This document shows positions 30,436 through 48,804 of a stretch of DNA of 64,000 nt, piece after piece. This DNA comes from Alphaproteobacteria bacterium (GTDB lineage: Bacteria > Bacteroidota > Bacteroidia > Chitinophagales > Chitinophagaceae). The stretch spans positions 1-64,000 of the forward strand of contig JASGCT010000001.1 of NCBI GenBank assembly GCA_030053915.1, read 5' to 3'. The position numbers and the translations under genes were made by a program. How positions within the stretch are numbered: position 1 is the first letter of the stretch; each line of letters starts with the position of its first letter. A model generated the notes under the pieces. That model made no database searches, had not been told where the DNA came from, and was given only the letters and a program-made list of their open reading frames with translations.

Positions 30436-33400
30436 TTATTGCTTAATTAACTTTAATGTGCCCTGGGTAAATTTACCCTGAACTTTGAGGATATAAACAC
30501 CCGAAGGATAGCTTGAAATATCTAACATAACCTGTCTATAATCATCTATTTCAACATGTTTCGTAAATAAATAGTTTCCTTGTTCAGTAATCAAACTAAG
30601 CAGTACATTTAAATCATCCCCACCAATGTTTAGTGTAACTACGTTTGAGGCTGGGTTAGGATATAAAGACATCTTATTGCTTACTAAAATGGTTTCTTCA
30701 TACACCCCTTCACAATCTTTTTCGGTTTTTACTATAATTTTATTAACCCCCGGAATCAGCGGCAACTTAACAATGTTACTGGTTGTTTTAAACGTGTTCC
30801 CATTTATATTAATAACATAACGAGTGCTTCCAGATAAATGTAACGATACTGTTCTACCGCTTTCTTCAACTTGGCTAAAAGCATTTAATTTATCTGGCTG
30901 TTTCAAAATAATATTAAAAGTTCTACTTTGAAAATCGGTATATCTTTGGCTATCAAAAACCACCACCTCATATATAGTATCGGCATATAAATTGTTTATA
31001 ACAAATTGATTCCCTTTTAAATTAAAAGTATCCATTGAATGGCTGACCGTGTTTCGAATAAATAGTTTATTATAAATTGTGGTATCCGTAAAACGTACTG
31101 TAGCAGCCCCTGTTTGCCCATAACAATTGGGATTGGTTACAATAATACTAATACTATTTAAAGAAATAGATCGTGGCTTAAAAGTAACCCTTAAACTACT
31201 ATCGCCTTGGATATTGGTAAATGTATAAATGCTGTCTGTAAAAGATTGATTTATATTATTAACAATCACACTATCAATTAGATAATTTTTATTTGGTGTA
31301 AATGTACATGAAAAACTAGTACCAAAATTAACCGAAATAAGTCCCGCTGGACTTACAAAACCATTATTACCATAACTTATAAATAATTGAAATGTTTTAA
31401 TTTTAAAGGTTGCATAAATGGTTCGGTTTGAATTAAGATTTGTAAATGTAAATTGACTTGCTTTGGGAACCGAAACACCATCTATAAATAAACTATCTAA
31501 ATCATACCCTTCGTCTGGAATAATTGAATAAACTACATTTTTACCGTAACTTACTACGGATGTACCTCTCGGAGATATACTGCCATGAATTGTTGCTAAT
31601 GCTGTAATAGTAAACGTTTTAAGTTTGTAGGTAACCAATATCGATGAATCACCGCGGACATTATTAAAAGTATAACGATTCACCGAATCTAAACCAACAT
31701 ACTTAGTATTAATAAAGATACTATCTAATTCATAACCAATCTTTGGACTATAGGTTATCACAACGTTTTCGTTAAAGTTAATAGACGTTGGCTCACTAAT
31801 TGTACCATTAAGTACTTTGGTATTTATATTCACTAAATTACTATGTGGTAAAATAAAATCGGAGGTATCTGAAGGCGAAGACACCATCCCCCATGCATTA
31901 ACTGCAAAAACAATAAATTGATATGGGGTGTTATTTGTTAAATTTGAAATGATGATAGGGCTTTCTGAACCAAAGGTTTCACCAGACGTATGAGTTGACA
32001 CAACTACATATTTTACAATAGAACCGCCGTTCCAATCCATTGGAGGTTCAAATCTAACTATAGCTTGTCCATTTCCAGCAATTGCTCCTAATAAAACAGG
32101 GGGTGAACTTGCTACAACACGTTTAAAAAAAACCATGATGCTACTATCGCCTGTAACATTTAAAAAACGGTAGCTAAGGCTATCTAAACCAGCGTTTTGC
32201 CCATTTAAATATTGATAAACTAAACGTCCATTTATAACCATACTATCAATAATAAACGTATCTTGTGCTTTAATAATACAGGTAATGTCATTGCCACTAA
32301 GTACCCTATTTTCGCCACCTTCAAAACCTATGTTTCCGCCTTCGTTATTTTGATAGTTTATAAAATATGAATGCCTTTTAAACACAACTCTAATATTTTG
32401 ATTGCTTACAATATTTTTAAATATATATTGTATTTGTTTCGTAACCACAATACCATTCACAAAAACACTATCTATTACATAACCTACATCTGGCAAAAAT
32501 GAATATTCAATACTAGAATCATAGTAAATGGTAGTATCGCCCTGTGGAATAATTCTACCACCTATGCTTGCACTTACTGTAATAGTAAAAGTTTGATTTT
32601 TAAAAGTTGCTCGAATAGTTTGTTTCGATTTGACGCTTTCAAAAGTATAGCGATTACTTGTTGTGGCAAAACTATCATTCACAAAAACGCTATCTATTAA
32701 ATAACCAACATCAGGGATAAAATTAAAGGAGATACTATTTCCATAATTTACGGTTGTTGTACCACTTGGCGATATACTGCCATGCGGTGATGGTAAAGCT
32801 GTAATTAAAAACGTTTTAAGTTTATAGGTAACCAATATCGATGAATCACCGCTGACATTATTAAAAGTATAACGATTCACCGAATCTAAACCAACATATT
32901 TAGTATTAATAAAGATGCTATCTAATTCATAACCAAGCTTTGGACTATAAGTAATTACAATATCCTCGCTAAAATTTATTGAAGTAGGTTCACTAATTGT
33001 GCCATTAATAACTTTGGTATAGATATTCTCTAAATTACTATGAGGTAAAATAAAATCGGTTGTGTCTGATGCTGGTGAGACCATGCCCCATTGGTTTATT
33101 GCAAAAACAATAAATTGATACCGAACATTATTGATTAAATTTTTAATGATTATTGGGCTTTCTGAACCAAAACTATCACGAGAGGCATTAGTTGCAACAA
33201 CTAAATATTTTACAATTGTTCCGCCATTCCAATCTGTAGGTATATCGAACCTAACAATTGCCTGCTTATCACCTGCAAGAGCACCTAATAAAATAGGCGA
33301 TGAACTTGGTGAAACACGTTTAAAATAAACTATGATACTACTATCGCCTGTAACATTTAAAAAACGGTAGCTAAGGCTATCTAAACCAGCGTTTTGCCCA

Positions 33401-36400
33401 TTTAAATATTGATAAACACGTCCATTTATAACCATACTATCAATAATAAACGTATCTTGGGCTTTAATAATACAGGTAATGTCATTGCCGCTAAATACCT
33501 TATTTACGCCACCTTCAAAACCTATGATTCCACCTTCGGTATTTTGATAATTTATAAAATAAGAATGCCTTTTAAACATAACTCTAATATTTTGGTTGCT
33601 TACAATATTATTAAATATATATTGTATTTGTTTGGTAACCACAACACCATTTATTAAAATAGAATCAATGTCATAACCTAAATTGGGCAGAATACTATAA
33701 GTTATATTACTCCCATAATCTAACAATGTATCGCCCTGCGGGCTAATACTACCGCCAATCCCAGCCCTTGCCGTAATAATAAAAATTTTATTCTTAAATG
33801 TTACCCGAATCGTTTGGTTCACCCTTACACTATCAAAACGATAATTAGTGGCAGTTGTGGCAAAAGTATCATTCACAAAAACACTATCTATTAAATATCC
33901 AATATCAGGCGTAAAAACATAAACAATACTTGAATCGTATTTTATAATTGTATCGCCCTGCGGGCTAATACTACCGCCCATACCAGCCCTTGCCGTAATA
34001 ATAAAAATTTTATTCTTAAATGTTACCCGAATCGTTTGGTTCACCCTTACACTATCAAAACGATAATTAGTGGCAGTTGTGGCAAAAGTATCATTCACAA
34101 AAACACTATCTATTAAATATCCAATATCAGGCGTAAAAACATAAACAATACTTGAATCGTATTTTATAATTGTATCGCCCTGCGGGCTAATACTACCGCC
34201 CATACCAGCACTTGCCGTAATAATAAAAGTTTTATTCTTAAATGTTACCCGAATCGTTTGGTTCGCTCTTACACTATCAAAACGATAATTAGTGGCAGTT
34301 GTGGCAAAACTATCATTCACAAAAACACTATCTATTAAATATCCTATATCAGGGACAATATTATATTGAATATTTGAATCGTATTTTATAATTGTATCGC
34401 CCTGCGGGCTAATACTTCCACCCTCTCCAGCCCTTGCCGTAATAGTAAAGGTTTGATTCTTAAATGTTACCCGAATCATTTGGTTCGCTCTTACACTATC
34501 AAAACGATAATTAGTGGCAGATGTGGCAAAACTATCATTCACAAAAACACTATCTATTAAATATCCTATATCAGGGACAATATTATATTGAATATTTGAA
34601 TCGTATTTTATAATTGTATCGCCCTGCGGGCTAATACTTCCACCCTCTCCAGCCCTTGCCGTAATAGTAAAGGTTTGATTTTTAAAAATTACTCGAATCG
34701 ATGAATCACCACGAATTTTTTTAATCGTGTAACTGTTTACAGAATCTATGCCAATATATCTGTTATTTACAAAAATACTATCTAAAACAAAGCCTTTAAC
34801 AGGAGAATAAGTAATTTGCAAAAGACTATTGCTATCTACAACATTACCCATACTAATAGTACCATTAAAAACAGTGGTTGTTACGTTATATGTAGGAATT
34901 ACTCTAAATTTAATCCGAATAGTTTGCGTAGTATCTATATTTTTAAAAGTATAGCCACTTAAAGAGTCTGAAGTAGCATTACGATTATACATGCCATTAA
35001 TAATAACGGAATCTATCGCATAGCCTAAATTTGTTGAATATGTTATCCGAACAGAATCACCAAATTTCACAAAAAAACTATTTGAAATAATACCGCCACT
35101 ATTGGCATTTGTTTTGATACTAAGTCTGTTCATGGCAAAACTAAAATTTGAAGTAGAACTACTACTCATATTAAATACATAGTTTAAATCGTTAGGGATA
35201 CTTGTTTCGCCATTCGAATTATCGCCCCAACCTATTATTTTAGTAGATTGCGGGATATTAGCCTGATTATTGGTTAAAGCTAAAGCATAATTTACACCAG
35301 CTACAATTTGAATAACACTTTTTAAACCTGCTGGCGGGGCTAATCCTCCATTATCGCCCCAGACCACAACGGTGCTATCACTTTTTAAAGCCAAACAATA
35401 ACCATATCCTGAAGCTATTTGTATAACTTTATTCAAGTTCGGCAGATTATGAAGTTGTCCACTACCATTTTCGCCCCAAACTTCAACCGTGCTATCTGCT
35501 TTCAAAGCCATCCCGTGTTTATAACCATTTGCAACTTGTATCACATTATTTAAATTTGCAGGAATGTGAATTAATTGACTACCAGACGCCCCCCAACCAA
35601 CCACAGTGCCATCTGTTTTTAAAGCTAATGAAGCCAACCTTCCAGATGAAATTTGTACTACATTATTTAAATTAGCTGGAAAATTCAGCTGTCCTAAATT
35701 ATTTTCTCCCCAACCTACTAGCGTCCCATCCGATTTTAAGGCTAAAGAAAAAATAGCCCCAGCCGCAATTTGTACCACATCTTTTAAAGTGGAAGGTACG
35801 TTTGTCTGTCCTTCGCCATTATATCCCCAGCCCACAACTTCACCATTTTTTCTAAGCCCAAGTGAAAAGGCGCTACCACCTACAATTTCAATCAAATTTC
35901 TCAATGTAGCAATATTGCGTTGCCCATTTTTATTCAAACCCCAACTTATATTTTCTATACTATCCGTAGCAAAATTGTAAATTCTTAATAACATCGTATT
36001 CGTTGTAAAACTATTCCCTTTTATAAATTGCATTCTATAAATACCCGCTTTCATATTTTCTGGTAAAACAAAAAAATAATTGGTATCCAAAACTTCAACC
36101 CGCCGCTTATATCTATAAGGCAAAATAATCGTATCTTTAAAATGAATCAGTTTCAATGTAGTAACAAAAGGACTTCTTATAAAAAAGGTATCCCCTGTTT
36201 TCACAATTACTTTACTAATAGATTTTAAATAAACCCTGTTGGTAAAAATAACTTTAATAGAATGGGTGGTATCCACATTATTAAACGTATAACCAACTAA
36301 TGAATCGCGGCTGACATCAGCATTATAAACCCCATTAATATAAACGCTATCTAAAGCATAATTGCTGTCTGCTTTATAGGTTATTCTTACGTTTTCACCA

Positions 36401-38802
36401 TATTTTATAAATAATGTACTTCTTATAACACCGCCATTATTTGTGCTTGTTTTAATACTTATTTTGTTCATGGCAAAATTAAAATTTGCAAAAGGACCAC
36501 TACTCATATTTACCACATAATCTAAATGGAGTGGACTATTTATTTGACCATCGGCGTTTGCACCCCAACCAACTATTTTAGTAGTGTATGTATTGTTTAA
36601 GTTATCATTCGTTAAGGCTAACGAATGATATTCACCAGCCACCACTTGAACAATATTTTTTAATCCTACGGGGATGTTTGTTTGTCCAGAGCCATCACTA
36701 CCCCATGCCACAACGGTACTATCGCTTTTTAAAGCCAAGACATGGTCGTACCCTGATGAAATTTGTATAACATTTTTAAGGTTCGATGGTTTGTTGAGCT
36801 TTGGAGGTCTATTAGTTCCCCAAACTTCTACCGTGCTATCGGCTCTTAAAGCTACAGCATGCTGATAACCTGCCGCTATTTGGATAACATTTGTTAAACC
36901 AGACGGAACACGAATAAAAGGCAAACTATTCGCCCCCCAACTTACAACATTTCCATCAGATTTTAAAGCGAGGCAAAAAGAGTTTCCTGTCGCAATTTGT
37001 ATCACGTCTTTTAAACCAGACGGGACATTCAGTTGATGCTCACTATTGCTGCCCCAACCTACTACAGTCCCATCCGATTTTAAAGCTAAAGAAAACAAAG
37101 CCCCAGCCGCAATTTGTACCACATCGTTTAAAGTAGAAGGCACATTTGTTTGACCACTCCCATTATATCCCCATCCAATCACCTTGCCATCTTGTTTCAA
37201 TCCAAGTGAAAACGCTCTACCCCCCACAATGTCAACTAAATTTCTCAACTTCGCAATGTTCCTTTGACCATTGGTATTTAAACCCCAACTTATATTTTCA
37301 ATACTATCCGTAGCAAAATTATAAATCCTTATTAAAAGCGTACTTTTTGTTGTTGTATCACCCCTGACACCTTGAATTTCATAAATTTTCGCTTTTAAAC
37401 AATATGGTATTACAAAAAAATAATTTGTATCAATTAGCGCAATCTTTCGTTTATATCGATAATGTAAACCAAGCGTATCTTTAAAATGGATAAGATTAAT
37501 AGAACTCAAAAATGGGCTTCTAATAATGATAGTATCACCCGTTTTTACAAGTACTTTATTTACCGATTTTATTTTAGCACCATTATTAAATACAACCCTG
37601 ATAGTTTCTACGTCTTGAACATTATTAAAAGTATAACCAAGTAAGGAATCCTTAGTGGCAATTTCATTGTAAACACCATTTATATAAATACTATCCACAT
37701 AATACCCATAGTCACCAAGGTAGCCCACTCTGTAATGATACCCTGATAAAATTGTATGATTGGCACTTATCGAACCATGGCTCACTTGAGTGTTTATTTT
37801 ACTATAAAAGGTATCCGCCGTAAAAACATAACTCCTAAAAATTCTACTCAAATCATTTTTAATTCTAACTTGAACCTCGCCTTGCCTAAAATTTTCTGGT
37901 ATTGTTGCTACCCAATTCGTTTCTATGATTGTTTCTATATTGTACCAGGTAAGTGTACCATCAATACTAAATTGTAGTGTGTCGTACGCTGTTATATTGT
38001 TTGCCAAACTTCCAAATAAAAATTGCCGAGTTGTATCATAAAAATATTGTGCACCTTTATTTTGTTGACTGATAACTATTGCGGAATCCACAATTGCCCC
38101 AACCGCAGTGGAAGCATTCATTAATTTACTAGCATTAGGAATACTTAAACGTTGAAATATGCGGCTTTTATTTAAAGGCAAATAATAAATTAAATTGGGA
38201 CTATTGTTGGTAATTTTCACTCTTAAATTATTTTGAATGTCTTGAACAGACCGTGCAACATTCCATATTCTAAACTCTTGAAACTGCCCTATAGTTGAGG
38301 CATTATTATAGTTTGAAGCCCCAATTTTACATGTCGACAATATAGCAGAGTTGTTAGAAAACCTATATTTATCTATGAACACGCCATCTAAATACGTTAA
38401 AATAGAATCATTTTTTTTAACCATGGCTACATGATGCCAAACATCATCCTGTACCCTATTTAAAGTATCTACACGTCTATCACCATTAACAAATAATAGA
38501 CCGCTTGTACCATCAAATCCAATTGAAAGCACATTATTATTCTGCCCTGTACCAGCTTCAAATATCCGTTGAAAACTTCTTGTCCTATCAACAACCTTAA
38601 ACCAAGTTTCAACGGTAAAATTGCCATTAGCTAAAGAACCCAAACTCGGCAATTGTATATAATCACCATTAGAACCCGTTGCATCCGTAGTGGTTTGAAA
38701 ACTATTATTACTAAAATATAAAATAGAATCACGAGTCTGGGCATTCATGATTAAACCACACATGACAAATAAAATAGAAAAACAACGTATTTTTTTAAAC
38801 AT
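30436..38802 (-). CDS. Giant T9SS-secreted repeat protein (LamG, RCC1, InlB-like repeats, Fn3)
   Basis: 2788 residues. A signal peptide ends near IMNAQ. A concanavalin-type LamG domain covers about 40-210 (GNFTVETWFKVVDR, DVWHHVAMVKKNDSILTYLD). Two modules follow, each an InlB-B-like segment, an IPT-like segment and an RCC1-type propeller (about 500-760 and 945-1205; blades such as VVQIAAGALFSLALKSDGTV and GWG). From about 1280 on come many 70-75-residue bacterial InlB-like repeats (YxIDSVFVND, GGSISPQGDT), five of them nearly identical. Two fibronectin-III-like domains lie near 1820-1930 and 2220-2325. The last 78 residues are a type A T9SS sorting domain (MSLYPNPASNVVTLNI to KLIKQ). It is expected to be displayed on or released from the cell surface. 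The role is probably adhesion or matrix, by inference. Confidence 0.9.
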   Translation of the reverse strand: MFKKIRCFSILFVMCGLIMNAQTRDSILYFSNNSFQTTTDATGSNGDYIQLPSLGSLANGNFTVETWFKVVDRTRSFQRIFEAGTGQNNNVLSIGFDGTSGLLFVNGDRRVDTLNRVQDDVWHHVAMVKKNDSILTYLDGVFIDKYRFSNNSAILSTCKIGASNYNNASTIGQFQEFRIWNVARSVQDIQNNLRVKITNNSPNLIYYLPLNKSRIFQRLSIPNASKLMNASTAVGAIVDSAIVISQQNKGAQYFYDTTRQFLFGSLANNITAYDTLQFSIDGTLTWYNIETIIETNWVATIPENFRQGEVQVRIKNDLSRIFRSYVFTADTFYSKINTQVSHGSISANHTILSGYHYRVGYLGDYGYYVDSIYINGVYNEIATKDSLLGYTFNNVQDVETIRVVFNNGAKIKSVNKVLVKTGDTIIIRSPFLSSINLIHFKDTLGLHYRYKRKIALIDTNYFFVIPYCLKAKIYEIQGVRGDTTTKSTLLIRIYNFATDSIENISWGLNTNGQRNIAKLRNLVDIVGGRAFSLGLKQDGKVIGWGYNGSGQTNVPSTLNDVVQIAAGALFSLALKSDGTVVGWGSNSEHQLNVPSGLKDVIQIATGNSFCLALKSDGNVVSWGANSLPFIRVPSGLTNVIQIAAGYQHAVALRADSTVEVWGTNRPPKLNKPSNLKNVIQISSGYDHVLALKSDSTVVAWGSDGSGQTNIPVGLKNIVQVVAGEYHSLALTNDNLNNTYTTKIVGWGANADGQINSPLHLDYVVNMSSGPFANFNFAMNKISIKTSTNNGGVIRSTLFIKYGENVRITYKADSNYALDSVYINGVYNADVSRDSLVGYTFNNVDTTHSIKVIFTNRVYLKSISKVIVKTGDTFFIRSPFVTTLKLIHFKDTIILPYRYKRRVEVLDTNYFFVLPENMKAGIYRMQFIKGNSFTTNTMLLRIYNFATDSIENISWGLNKNGQRNIATLRNLIEIVGGSAFSLGLRKNGEVVGWGYNGEGQTNVPSTLKDVVQIAAGAIFSLALKSDGTLVGWGENNLGQLNFPANLNNVVQISSGRLASLALKTDGTVVGWGASGSQLIHIPANLNNVIQVANGYKHGMALKADSTVEVWGENGSGQLHNLPNLNKVIQIASGYGYCLALKSDSTVVVWGDNGGLAPPAGLKSVIQIVAGVNYALALTNNQANIPQSTKIIGWGDNSNGETSIPNDLNYVFNMSSSSTSNFSFAMNRLSIKTNANSGGIISNSFFVKFGDSVRITYSTNLGYAIDSVIINGMYNRNATSDSLSGYTFKNIDTTQTIRIKFRVIPTYNVTTTVFNGTISMGNVVDSNSLLQITYSPVKGFVLDSIFVNNRYIGIDSVNSYTIKKIRGDSSIRVIFKNQTFTITARAGEGGSISPQGDTIIKYDSNIQYNIVPDIGYLIDSVFVNDSFATSATNYRFDSVRANQMIRVTFKNQTFTITARAGEGGSISPQGDTIIKYDSNIQYNIVPDIGYLIDSVFVNDSFATTATNYRFDSVRANQTIRVTFKNKTFIITASAGMGGSISPQGDTIIKYDSSIVYVFTPDIGYLIDSVFVNDTFATTATNYRFDSVRVNQTIRVTFKNKIFIITARAGMGGSISPQGDTIIKYDSSIVYVFTPDIGYLIDSVFVNDTFATTATNYRFDSVRVNQTIRVTFKNKIFIITARAGIGGSISPQGDTLLDYGSNITYSILPNLGYDIDSILINGVVVTKQIQYIFNNIVSNQNIRVMFKRHSYFINYQNTEGGIIGFEGGVNKVFSGNDITCIIKAQDTFIIDSMVINGRVYQYLNGQNAGLDSLSYRFLNVTGDSSIIVYFKRVSPSSSPILLGALAGDKQAIVRFDIPTDWNGGTIVKYLVVATNASRDSFGSESPIIIKNLINNVRYQFIVFAINQWGMVSPASDTTDFILPHSNLENIYTKVINGTISEPTSINFSEDIVITYSPKLGYELDSIFINTKYVGLDSVNRYTFNNVSGDSSILVTYKLKTFLITALPSPHGSISPSGTTTVNYGNSISFNFIPDVGYLIDSVFVNDSFATTSNRYTFESVKSKQTIRATFKNQTFTITVSASIGGRIIPQGDTTIYYDSSIEYSFLPDVGYVIDSVFVNGIVVTKQIQYIFKNIVSNQNIRVVFKRHSYFINYQNNEGGNIGFEGGENRVLSGNDITCIIKAQDTFIIDSMVINGRLVYQYLNGQNAGLDSLSYRFLNVTGDSSIMVFFKRVVASSPPVLLGAIAGNGQAIVRFEPPMDWNGGSIVKYVVVSTHTSGETFGSESPIIISNLTNNTPYQFIVFAVNAWGMVSSPSDTSDFILPHSNLVNINTKVLNGTISEPTSINFNENVVITYSPKIGYELDSIFINTKYVGLDSVNRYTFNNVRGDSSILVTYKLKTFTITALATIHGSISPRGTSVVSYGKNVVYSIIPDEGYDLDSLFIDGVSVPKASQFTFTNLNSNRTIYATFKIKTFQLFISYGNNGFVSPAGLISVNFGTSFSCTFTPNKNYLIDSVIVNNINQSFTDSIYTFTNIQGDSSLRVTFKPRSISLNSISIIVTNPNCYGQTGAATVRFTDTTIYNKLFIRNTVSHSMDTFNLKGNQFVINNLYADTIYEVVVFDSQRYTDFQSRTFNIILKQPDKLNAFSQVEESGRTVSLHLSGSTRYVININGNTFKTTSNIVKLPLIPGVNKIIVKTEKDCEGVYEETILVSNKMSLYPNPASNVVTLNIGGDDLNVLLSLITEQGNYLFTKHVEIDDYRQVMLDISSYPSGVYILKVQGKFTQGTLKLIKQ
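33500..34700 (-). repeat. Tandem 222-bp repeats inside the giant surface gene
   Basis: The phrase TCGCCCTGCGGGCTAATACT recurs at 33731, 33953, 34175, 34397 and 34619, exactly 222 bases (74 codons) apart. Adjacent units differ by only a few bases, whereas flanking repeats of the same protein family are far more divergent. This marks recent in-frame amplification. Outer limits are approximate. Confidence 0.92.
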
Positions 38803-45793: not shown

Positions 45794-45806
45794 GTGGTAA
45801 AATTAG

Positions 45807-45880
45807 TGGACCCAGTTGGGATTGAACCAACGACCCCCTGATTATGAGTCAGGTGCTCTAACCGGCTGAGCTATAGGTCC
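45807..45880 (-). tRNA. tRNA with CAU anticodon, probably tRNA-Ile2 (lysidine-modified)
   Basis: On the minus strand the 74 bases begin GGACCTATAGCTCAG and fold as a cloverleaf. The anticodon stem CTGA/TCAG holds loop CTCATAA with anticodon CAT. The T arm is GGTTCAATCC and the 3' discriminator is A; CCA is not encoded. Acceptor pairs C4-G69 and C5-G68 are those recognised by the lysidine synthase TilS, favouring the AUA-decoding Ile2 tRNA over elongator Met. Confidence 0.85.
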
Positions 45881-46011: not shown

Positions 46012-46019
46012 TATATTTG
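46012..46019 (+). promoter_or_regulatory. Promoter -7 element for the methyltransferase-HNH pair
   Basis: TATATTTG, a TAnnTTTG match followed by C, ends 24 bases before the ATG at 46044. Confidence 0.6.
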
Positions 46020-46043: not shown

Positions 46044-46841
46044 ATGAAAAATAACGAACTAATAGATACTGAGAATAAACTAATAGTTGGAGATTGCTCC
46101 AAAGTTATGCAGCATTTTCAAGAAGAAATAATAGACTTAGTGGTTACTTCACCACCTTATGATGATTTAAGAAATTATAATGGTTTCACGTTCGATTTTA
46201 AAACAATTGCAACGCAGTTGTTCAAAATATTAAAAAAAGGAGGTGTTGTTGTTTGGGTTGTAGGGGATAAAATTAACGGTGGTCGTACGCTAACTAGTTT
46301 TAAACAAGCAATTTATTTTCAAGAAATTGGATTTACTATTCACGATGTTATGATATATGCCAAAAAGAATACACCTTTTATGCGTTCAAACGCATATACT
46401 AATTGCTATGAGTATATGTTTGTATTAAGCAAAGGCAAACCAAAAACGTTTAACCCGTTAAAAGAAAAAACAGTAAGAAGTGGATTAGAAATGTTGGTAA
46501 CAAATAAAGGGGCTAATGGGATTAATAATAAAGTTTTAAAAGAATTAAAGGAAGAGAAAACCCTTACTAATATTTGGTATTATGCAGTTGGATTAGGAGG
46601 CACCACTAAAGATAAAGAAGCCTTTAAGCATCCTGCAATGTTCCCTGAAAAATTAGTACTAGACCACATCTTATCTTGGACAAATGAAGGCGATATCGTT
46701 TTAGACCCTATGTGCGGTTCTGGAACTACCTGTAAAATGGCTGCATTAAGCAATAGAAAATATATTGGAATTGATATTAGTGATGACTATATTAAAATTG
46801 CTAAAAAGAGAGTTGCTCAAACTGAAGGTATTTTTGTATGA
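46044..46841 (+). CDS. DNA methyltransferase, beta class (TSPPY type)
   Basis: 265 residues. Catalytic motif IV TSPPY (35-39) comes first and SAM motif I, DPMCGSGTT (221-229) with YIGIDISDDYIKIAKKRV after it, comes last: the permuted beta class. TSPPY is usual in N4-cytosine methylases but also occurs in N6-adenine ones, so the base is not certain. The middle holds the target-recognition region (about 85-190). The stop overlaps the start of the HNH nuclease gene by 4 bases (ATGA), so this is the protecting half of a type II restriction-modification pair. It probably arrived by horizontal transfer between the tRNA and ffh, although its AT content is like its neighbours. Confidence 0.88.
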   Translation: MKNNELIDTENKLIVGDCSKVMQHFQEEIIDLVVTSPPYDDLRNYNGFTFDFKTIATQLFKILKKGGVVVWVVGDKINGGRTLTSFKQAIYFQEIGFTIHDVMIYAKKNTPFMRSNAYTNCYEYMFVLSKGKPKTFNPLKEKTVRSGLEMLVTNKGANGINNKVLKELKEEKTLTNIWYYAVGLGGTTKDKEAFKHPAMFPEKLVLDHILSWTNEGDIVLDPMCGSGTTCKMAALSNRKYIGIDISDDYIKIAKKRVAQTEGIFV

Positions 46842-47413
46842 GAATTAAAGTGAATAGTTTTGTAATTATTACCAAGAACATAGCGGATATTACAATAAAT
46901 TCAGTAGGATTAATAAAAGCAATTAATGGGAAATATGCTATGGTATATTGCATTGGCAAAAACCAAATTATTCGTTTAAATTTTAGTTCAATTCAAGAAT
47001 TAGATGTTGAAAAAACAGGCAAAAAATTTCCTTTTAAGATTTGTAATATTTGTCATGTTTTAAAAGAAACTAATGAATTTGATATTAATCAAACCGATGC
47101 AAAAGGCATAAAAACCACGAGGCCAAGTTGTAAAGATTGTCGTAAAAAAATTGATGGGGCACAACTATTATTAGAAGAAAAGAAAAAAATGGATGAATTA
47201 AAACCACCTTTAAAAAGTGTTTTTGTTTGTCCAATATGTGAAAAAAGAAGCATTGTGGGTATTACAGCTAATTTAGTAAGAGACCACGACCACGAAACTG
47301 GTAAAGCACGAGAATGGATTTGTGATAGTTGTAACACTGGATTAGGTAGATTTAAAGACAATATTGATTTTATAAAAAAAGTTGTAAAATATTTAAAGAA
47401 GTATTCAAGATAA
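46838..47413 (+). CDS. HNH endonuclease (endonuclease VII-like), probable restriction enzyme
   Basis: 191 residues. The C-terminal domain is an HNH/endonuclease VII-type metal finger: Cys131-Pro-Ile-Cys134, then Asp149-His150-Asp151-His152 (RDHDHETGKAREW), Cys162/Cys165 and Asn166 (ICDSCNTGLGRFKDN). A second zinc knuckle lies upstream (CNIC 69-72 and CKDC 98-101). The first 60 residues form a small beta domain. The H and N residues and all zinc Cys are present, so it should be active. Because it overlaps the methyltransferase stop by 4 bases, it is probably translated by coupling after the methylase, which suits a restriction enzyme. No separate control gene was seen. Confidence 0.85.
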   Translation: MRIKVNSFVIITKNIADITINSVGLIKAINGKYAMVYCIGKNQIIRLNFSSIQELDVEKTGKKFPFKICNICHVLKETNEFDINQTDAKGIKTTRPSCKDCRKKIDGAQLLLEEKKKMDELKPPLKSVFVCPICEKRSIVGITANLVRDHDHETGKAREWICDSCNTGLGRFKDNIDFIKKVVKYLKKYSR

Positions 47414-47463: not shown

Positions 47464-47471
47464 TAATTTTG
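47464..47471 (+). promoter_or_regulatory. Promoter -7 element for ffh
   Basis: TAATTTTG, a TAnnTTTG match, ends 13 bases before the ATG at 47485, implying a very short leader. Confidence 0.6.
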
Positions 47472-47484
47472 CACTAAAAAACCT

Positions 47485-48804
47485 ATGTTTGAAAATTTAT
47501 CAGAAAAATTACAAAATGCCTTTAAATTTATAAAAGGACAAACCCATATTACCGAACACAATGTTTCTAATACCATCAAAGACATCCGAAAAGCCCTGTT
47601 AGACGCCGATGTAAACTATAAAATAGCCAAAGAATTTACCGAAAAAGTCAAAGAAAAAGCCATCGGACAAAAAATAATACAATCCATTAACCCCGGACAA
47701 CTCATGGTAAAAATCATGCAAGATGAACTTACCGAATTAATGGGTAGCACCGCCCAAGACCTGGTTTTAAACAAACCCATCAGCGTCGTTCTTGTGGTGG
47801 GTTTACAAGGAAATGGTAAAACAACCTTTTGCGGTAAATTAGCGATGCACTTAAAAAATGAAAAAAAACACCCCCTGTTGGTAGCCGCTGACGTCTATCG
47901 CCCCGCCGCCATTGAACAAATTAAACAACTTGCACAACAAGCCGAAGTGGAAGTATATAGCGAAGATGATAATAAAAATGTGATTCAAATTGCCCAAAAT
48001 GCCATGTCACACGCTAAATTACACAATAAAAATGTGCTTATTGTTGATACAGCCGGGCGCTTAGCCATCGACGAAGTGATGATGAACGAAGTTGCCGAAC
48101 TGAAAAAAGCCTTAGCACCAACCGAAATTTTATTCGTCATCGATGCCATGGTTGGGCAAGATGCTGTGAATACCGCCAAAACTTTTAACGATAGATTAGA
48201 CTTTAGTGGCGTTGTGCTAACAAAATTAGATGGCGATACACGAGGTGGTGCCGCACTCTCTGTTAAATATACCGTTCAAAAACCCATTAAATTTATAAGT
48301 CAAGGCGAAAAGTTATCAGCCTTAGATGTGTTTTATCCAGACCGCTTAGCCCAAAGAATTTTAGGCATGGGAGATATTGTAAGTTTAGTAGAAAAAGCAG
48401 AAAAACAATTTACCCAAGAACAAGCAGAAAAATTAGATAAAAAAATACGTCAAAACAAGTTTGATTACGACGATTTTTTAGAACAATTAGCTCAAATACA
48501 AAAAATGGGTAGTATAAAAGACATTATGAGCATGATACCAGGCATGGGTAAATTAGCAGACGACCCCAATGTTAACGATAAAGCCCTGGATAAAACCAAA
48601 GCCATTATACTTTCAATGACACCACAAGAACGCACGAACCCCGATCTTATGAATCCGTCTCGTAAAAAACGAATCGCTAAAGGTTGCGGTAAATCAATTG
48701 AAGAAATTAATGCTTTTATCAAACAATTCGAACAAATGAAAAACATGATGAAAAACATGCATAAAATGCCTAAAATGCCCGGTTTTAATATGCCAAAATT
48801 TTAA
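47485..48804 (+). CDS. ffh: Signal recognition particle GTPase
   Basis: Binds signal peptides of nascent proteins with 4.5S RNA and delivers them to FtsY at the membrane. 439 residues. The N domain covers about 1-95. The G domain has P-loop GLQGNGKTT (106-114; Asn replaces the usual Ser), DVYRPAAIEQIK, DTAGRLAID and TKLDGDTRGGAALS. The methionine-rich M domain ends in MKNMMKNMHKMPKMPGFNMP. Length is normal. It has its own promoter right after the restriction pair and is followed by rpsL. Confidence 0.96.
   Translation: MFENLSEKLQNAFKFIKGQTHITEHNVSNTIKDIRKALLDADVNYKIAKEFTEKVKEKAIGQKIIQSINPGQLMVKIMQDELTELMGSTAQDLVLNKPISVVLVVGLQGNGKTTFCGKLAMHLKNEKKHPLLVAADVYRPAAIEQIKQLAQQAEVEVYSEDDNKNVIQIAQNAMSHAKLHNKNVLIVDTAGRLAIDEVMMNEVAELKKALAPTEILFVIDAMVGQDAVNTAKTFNDRLDFSGVVLTKLDGDTRGGAALSVKYTVQKPIKFISQGEKLSALDVFYPDRLAQRILGMGDIVSLVEKAEKQFTQEQAEKLDKKIRQNKFDYDDFLEQLAQIQKMGSIKDIMSMIPGMGKLADDPNVNDKALDKTKAIILSMTPQERTNPDLMNPSRKKRIAKGCGKSIEEINAFIKQFEQMKNMMKNMHKMPKMPGFNMPKF

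Follow-up and report, generated by a model that had tools for sequence, protein, structure and literature searches.

Introduction

The closest described relative of the system reported here is Hpy99I, a restriction endonuclease from Helicobacter pylori J99 (PDB 3fc3, 3gox). Its architecture with an extra zinc knuckle has been known since 2009, and the structure is cited and reviewed in PMC4081073. The catalytic residues of Hpy99I are Asp148-His149 and Asn165 (PMC3765158), and in the methylome of H. pylori J99 the m4C modification of CGWCG was assigned to M.Hpy99I (jhp0756), a methylase of the beta class and Type IIP (PMC3936762). The T4 endonuclease VII family resembles the nuclease studied here in that its catalytic domain has the beta-beta-alpha-Me fold and carries a Cys4 zinc site. 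This similarity is weak, it covers the catalytic C-terminal half alone and leaves the Hpy99I barrel unmatched, and the family is not known to have a methylase partner. The HNH protein Gmet_0936 shares the same catalytic residues and a zinc ribbon, as seen by overlay on Hpy99I, but it lacks the N-terminal DNA-binding part of Hpy99I and a methylase neighbour, and it is not a typical restriction enzyme (PMC3765158).

Here we describe a methylase-nuclease pair found in a stretch of 64,000 nucleotides (the window), whose host, unlike that of Hpy99I, almost certainly belongs to Bacteroidota. We consider it very likely that the pair constitutes an Hpy99I-like restriction-modification system of Type IIP, with the mechanism and the horizontal gain that are proposed below.

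Organization of the gene pair

The first gene (46044..46841, plus strand) is an open reading frame of 265 amino acids encoding a beta-class (TSPPY) DNA methylase, and the second (46838..47413, plus strand; 191 amino acids) encodes a zinc-containing beta-beta-alpha-Me (HNH) nuclease, a restriction endonuclease of the Hpy99I type. Both frames are present as described in an earlier, sequence-only reading of this DNA, and the stop codon of the methylase overlaps the start codon of the nuclease in an ATGA (46838..46841, plus strand), through which the translation of the two genes is likely coupled.

Upstream of the pair we found a match to the Bacteroidota-type -7 promoter motif TAnnTTTG, TATATTTG (46012..46019, plus strand), at 24 bases from the methylase ATG; no good TTG -33 element occurs before the methylase at the usual spacing from it. 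The promoter scan used the -7 motif as its sole element, and this motif followed by C is enriched in the window (47 occurrences vs 27 expected). Since ffh (motif at 47464) and the tRNA-Met gene (45898, other strand) are each preceded by a -7 motif of their own, as the methylase is, the pair probably has its own promoter, in line with what had been proposed, leaving ffh with its own.

The pair lies between the tRNA-Met gene upstream (45806-45880, minus strand), whose 3' end is directed away from it, and ffh downstream (47485-48804). The sequence-only reading gave this position correctly and took it for an insertion, a part of the claim that found no support. An insertion into a conserved tRNA-ffh interval was considered and could not be supported, as the ffh neighbourhoods of 29 relatives differ and offer no comparable site: neither the flanking alcohol dehydrogenase nor rpsL was near ffh, nor was a tRNA within its flank, in any of these 29 loci. 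No attachment-like repeats flank the pair, where just short AT-rich matches were seen.

The nuclease is a full-length homologue of Hpy99I

Three Pfam families match the nuclease, all far over the cut-off and in the following order: an N-terminal SH3-like beta-barrel (SH3_17, residues 4-52, 46847..46993, plus strand; 2.9e-17), a first beta4-alpha2 repeat (His_Me_b4a2, residues 56-107, 47003..47158, plus strand; 4.1e-27) and a second repeat, which is the catalytic beta-beta-alpha-Me domain (Endonuclease_7, residues 127-188, 47216..47401, plus strand; 2.8e-19). A zinc knuckle is present in the first repeat (C69/C72/C98/C101) and another in the second (C131/C134/C162/C165), and the catalytic Asp149-His150 (codons at 47282..47287, plus strand) and Asn166 (codon at 47333..47335, plus strand) correspond to Asp148-His149 and Asn165 of Hpy99I. 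The two knuckles and the DHDH/N residues that had been read from the sequence are therefore all in place, and the catalytic residues as well as both Cys4 sets are invariant in 36 aligned homologues. In common with Hpy99I, the protein has the N-terminal barrel, two zinc-knuckled beta4-alpha2 repeats, and catalytic residues (Asp-His and Asn) whose positions match.

When the nuclease was searched against PDB sequences, the only strong match was Hpy99I (3fc3/3gox; E = 1.2e-81, residues 3-190/191), with which it shares 63-64% identity over the full length, and chains of T4 endonuclease VII were found at E = 0.09 or worse. The PADLOC type II REase model PDLC03494 spans the whole nuclease with 278 bits. 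An AlphaFold2 model built from 36 homologues (pLDDT 93) was compared with the PDB by Foldseek, which ranked 3fc3 first (E = 7.3e-28, 63% identity, full length, TM 0.84); beyond it, the sole match under 0.001 was the second chain of 3fc3. Pfam, the AlphaFold2 model and Foldseek thus all recover the fold of a barrel plus two beta4-alpha2 repeats, and the nuclease is a full-length homologue of Hpy99I. In this sense, the term endonuclease VII-like HNH, used in the sequence-only reading, suits the catalytic domain and not the rest of the protein, and the suggestion that enzymes with an extra CxxC knuckle are little described has to be dropped, as this is the architecture of Hpy99I, whose structure has been solved and whose site is known.

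The methylase

The methylase matches Pfam N6_N4_Mtase (1.8e-42). Its TSPPY motif (residues 35-39) stands ahead of DPMCGSGTT (residues 221-229), which is the beta order, and both motifs are largely invariant across 44 sequences. Like M.Hpy99I, the methylase is of the beta class and is encoded together with a nuclease of the Hpy99I type. Helicobacter methylases that adjoin Hpy99I-type nucleases are about 71-73% identical to it, and it is via these neighbours, not via the sequence of M.Hpy99I itself, that the tie to M.Hpy99I is drawn. By its partner and its clade, the methylase is predicted to be of the M.Hpy99I type and to form m4C at CGWCG.

Three further methylases, at L125 (genome G006), L126 (G037) and L127 (G048), are 50-54% identical to that of the window and are encoded in genomes or at loci without an Hpy99I-type nuclease; they are possibly orphan or otherwise partnered enzymes of related specificity.

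Linkage, distribution and probable horizontal acquisition

When 84,980 species genomes were scanned for the nuclease, at least 48 loci were found, a lower bound as close relatives alone are detected in this way. At 45 of them a methylase 63-76% identical to that of the window lies directly beside the nuclease, and the three without one (L045, L049, L050) are partial nuclease matches. The survey of linkage that had been suggested thus refutes the idea that the two genes are joined only here, and it indicates that the Hpy99I family extends over many phyla, archaea included, nearly always as a linked pair. Both genes are near full length at 43 other loci, the order-level relative L002 counted in; 17 of these have the methylase and nuclease in tandem, and in the other 26 the genes lie on opposite strands, convergent in all except L020.

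These data also bear on whether the nuclease could be a phage-type endonuclease VII, that is, a Holliday-junction resolvase or a homing enzyme placed by chance next to a methylase. In favour of this, the catalytic domain is matched by endonuclease VII families of both PHROG and Pfam. Against this, T4 endonuclease VII was found at just E = 0.09 and, among the matches listed, phage proteins cover two thirds of the nuclease at most and none reaches 60% identity. Moreover, no full-length relative was found in viral contigs, and the linkage with the methylase is kept across phyla. We regard a phage-type enzyme as extremely improbable, and a restriction endonuclease of the Hpy99I kind remains our reading of this gene.

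In the phylogenetic trees, the tandem loci and the window pair form one side of a branch with support of 100/99 for the nuclease and 100/97 for the methylase. Besides the window, the hosts of the tandem loci are Campylobacterota, Spirochaetota, Poribacteria, Latescibacterota and proteobacterial/myxococcal assemblies, and the tandem order is common to the Helicobacter relatives. The other Bacteroidota loci have the opposed arrangement, unlike the tandem of the window. None of 36 further genomes searched within the family has the nuclease, whose G+C content is 27.6% vs 36-37% for the flanking alcohol dehydrogenase and ffh genes. Plasmids, phage records and viral contigs yielded no homologue of full length, which gives no support to carriage on a mobile element. 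Because of its place in the tandem clade, the absence from these 36 genomes and the low G+C of the nuclease, the pair was probably gained by horizontal transfer from a donor of the tandem-gene clade.

Depletion of CGWCG in the host genome

The site CGWCG (CGACG/CGTCG) was chosen from homology ahead of counting. A maximal-order Markov model predicts 173.8 occurrences in the 461 kb sampled from the host genome, where 90 were counted (ratio 0.52, z -7.9), and no other of the 512 strand-merged 5-mers is as under-represented. CGWCG also ranked first in a disjoint host subset of 214 kb (ratio 0.46). Five genomes of the same family without the nuclease gave ratios of 1.03, 0.91, 1.12, 0.85 and 0.98, two of them with fewer than 20 sites. 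The ratio was 0.56 (z -6.2; 304 kb sample) in G048, the only relative at the order level in which a pair of the Hpy99I type was found. CGWCG has therefore been measurably purged from two host genomes. GTSAC is equally depleted in the host (0.52, z -5.9) and has no assigned restriction-modification system, so the depletion of CGWCG, which is strong but indirect evidence of the site, supports the activity of the pair and does not prove it. In the 304 kb of G048, GTSAC is far more depleted (0.20), and no system that would account for it was found there either.

The depletion method also fits a second system of the host, as words containing GGCC are depleted (GGCCC 0.54, GGCC 0.10) and contig C126 encodes a nuclease of the EcoO109I family. 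This second cluster, at about 106.2-110 kb of the contig (loci L056 and L052), comprises a truncated remnant of a beta-class methylase (103 aa), a 365-aa gene, a MjaI-family nuclease (PF09568), an intact beta-class methylase (279 aa) and the EcoO109I-family nuclease (PF14511, 302 bits).

Because homology, near-universal linkage and depletion of the predicted motif agree, the proposal of a restriction-modification pair is upheld, and the pair most likely forms a Type IIP system specific for CGWCG that is active now or was so recently. Two other explanations within the same family were weighed. According to the first, specificity has drifted and the pair now recognizes a site akin to CGWCG, such as one that is longer or relaxed. 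An identity of 63-64% to Hpy99I leaves room for such a change, and the terminal branch of the window nuclease is long (0.51). However, it is CGWCG that is the most depleted 5-mer of the genome, CGSCG is near normal (CGGCG 0.86), the same depletion occurs in G048, which has a different clade of the family, and residues across both nuclease repeats are invariant, all of which leaves a drifted site with a very slim chance. Should specificity or cutting mode have been altered in the Bacteroidota host, which we consider very unlikely, the pair would represent a new restriction specificity on the Hpy99I scaffold.

According to the second, the pair is decayed or silent, with a methylase kept orphan-like, an inactive nuclease and a depletion that is a relic. 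A disrupted nuclease frame does stand beside an intact methylase in the relatives L042 (Helicobacter mehlei), L039 (Poribacteria) and L046 (Desulfamplus), and these broken Hpy99I-type nucleases are either assembly errors or cases in which a pair has decayed naturally and left the methylase an orphan. In the window, in contrast, the nuclease frame is intact, every invariant catalytic and zinc residue is present, the nuclease has its own start in the ATGA overlap, and there is a -7 motif upstream; decay is very unlikely here.

Proposed mechanism and significance

For a functional CGWCG-specific system, the genes, residues, homology, fold, linkage and motif depletion observed above may be joined into a model in which the exact site, the m4C mark, the dimer, the metal mechanism, the cut position and activity at the present day are carried over from Hpy99I. 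The host would have gained the pair horizontally from a donor of the tandem-gene clade. The methylase would place m4C on CGWCG (CGACG/CGTCG) in both strands of the host chromosome, and the nuclease, translated via the ATGA overlap, would form a homodimer with zinc-stabilised beta-beta-alpha-Me domains that binds unmethylated CGWCG. One metal ion may be bound by Asp149 and Asn166, with His150 as the general base, a proposal based on the one-metal mechanism of Hpy99I (reviewed in PMC4081073). Both strands would then be cut at the edge of CGWCG, and incoming phage or foreign DNA would be destroyed. The structure paper of Hpy99I is said to describe a ring-like dimer around DNA and 5-nt 3' overhangs.

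With this pair, the Hpy99I family gains a tandemly arranged member from Bacteroidota, and no concept is changed; the result may be useful for annotation and enzyme mining.

Other features of the window

In the genome, 24 matches to TIGR04183, a model of type IX secretion tails, were found, 23 of them over the cut-off; together with the enrichment of the -7 motif in the window, they make it almost certain that the host belongs to Bacteroidota. In the window, a minus-strand frame of 2788 amino acids (30436-38802) that ends in such a tail contains 4.4 nearly identical tandem repeats of 222 bp (33727-34700; 95% matches).
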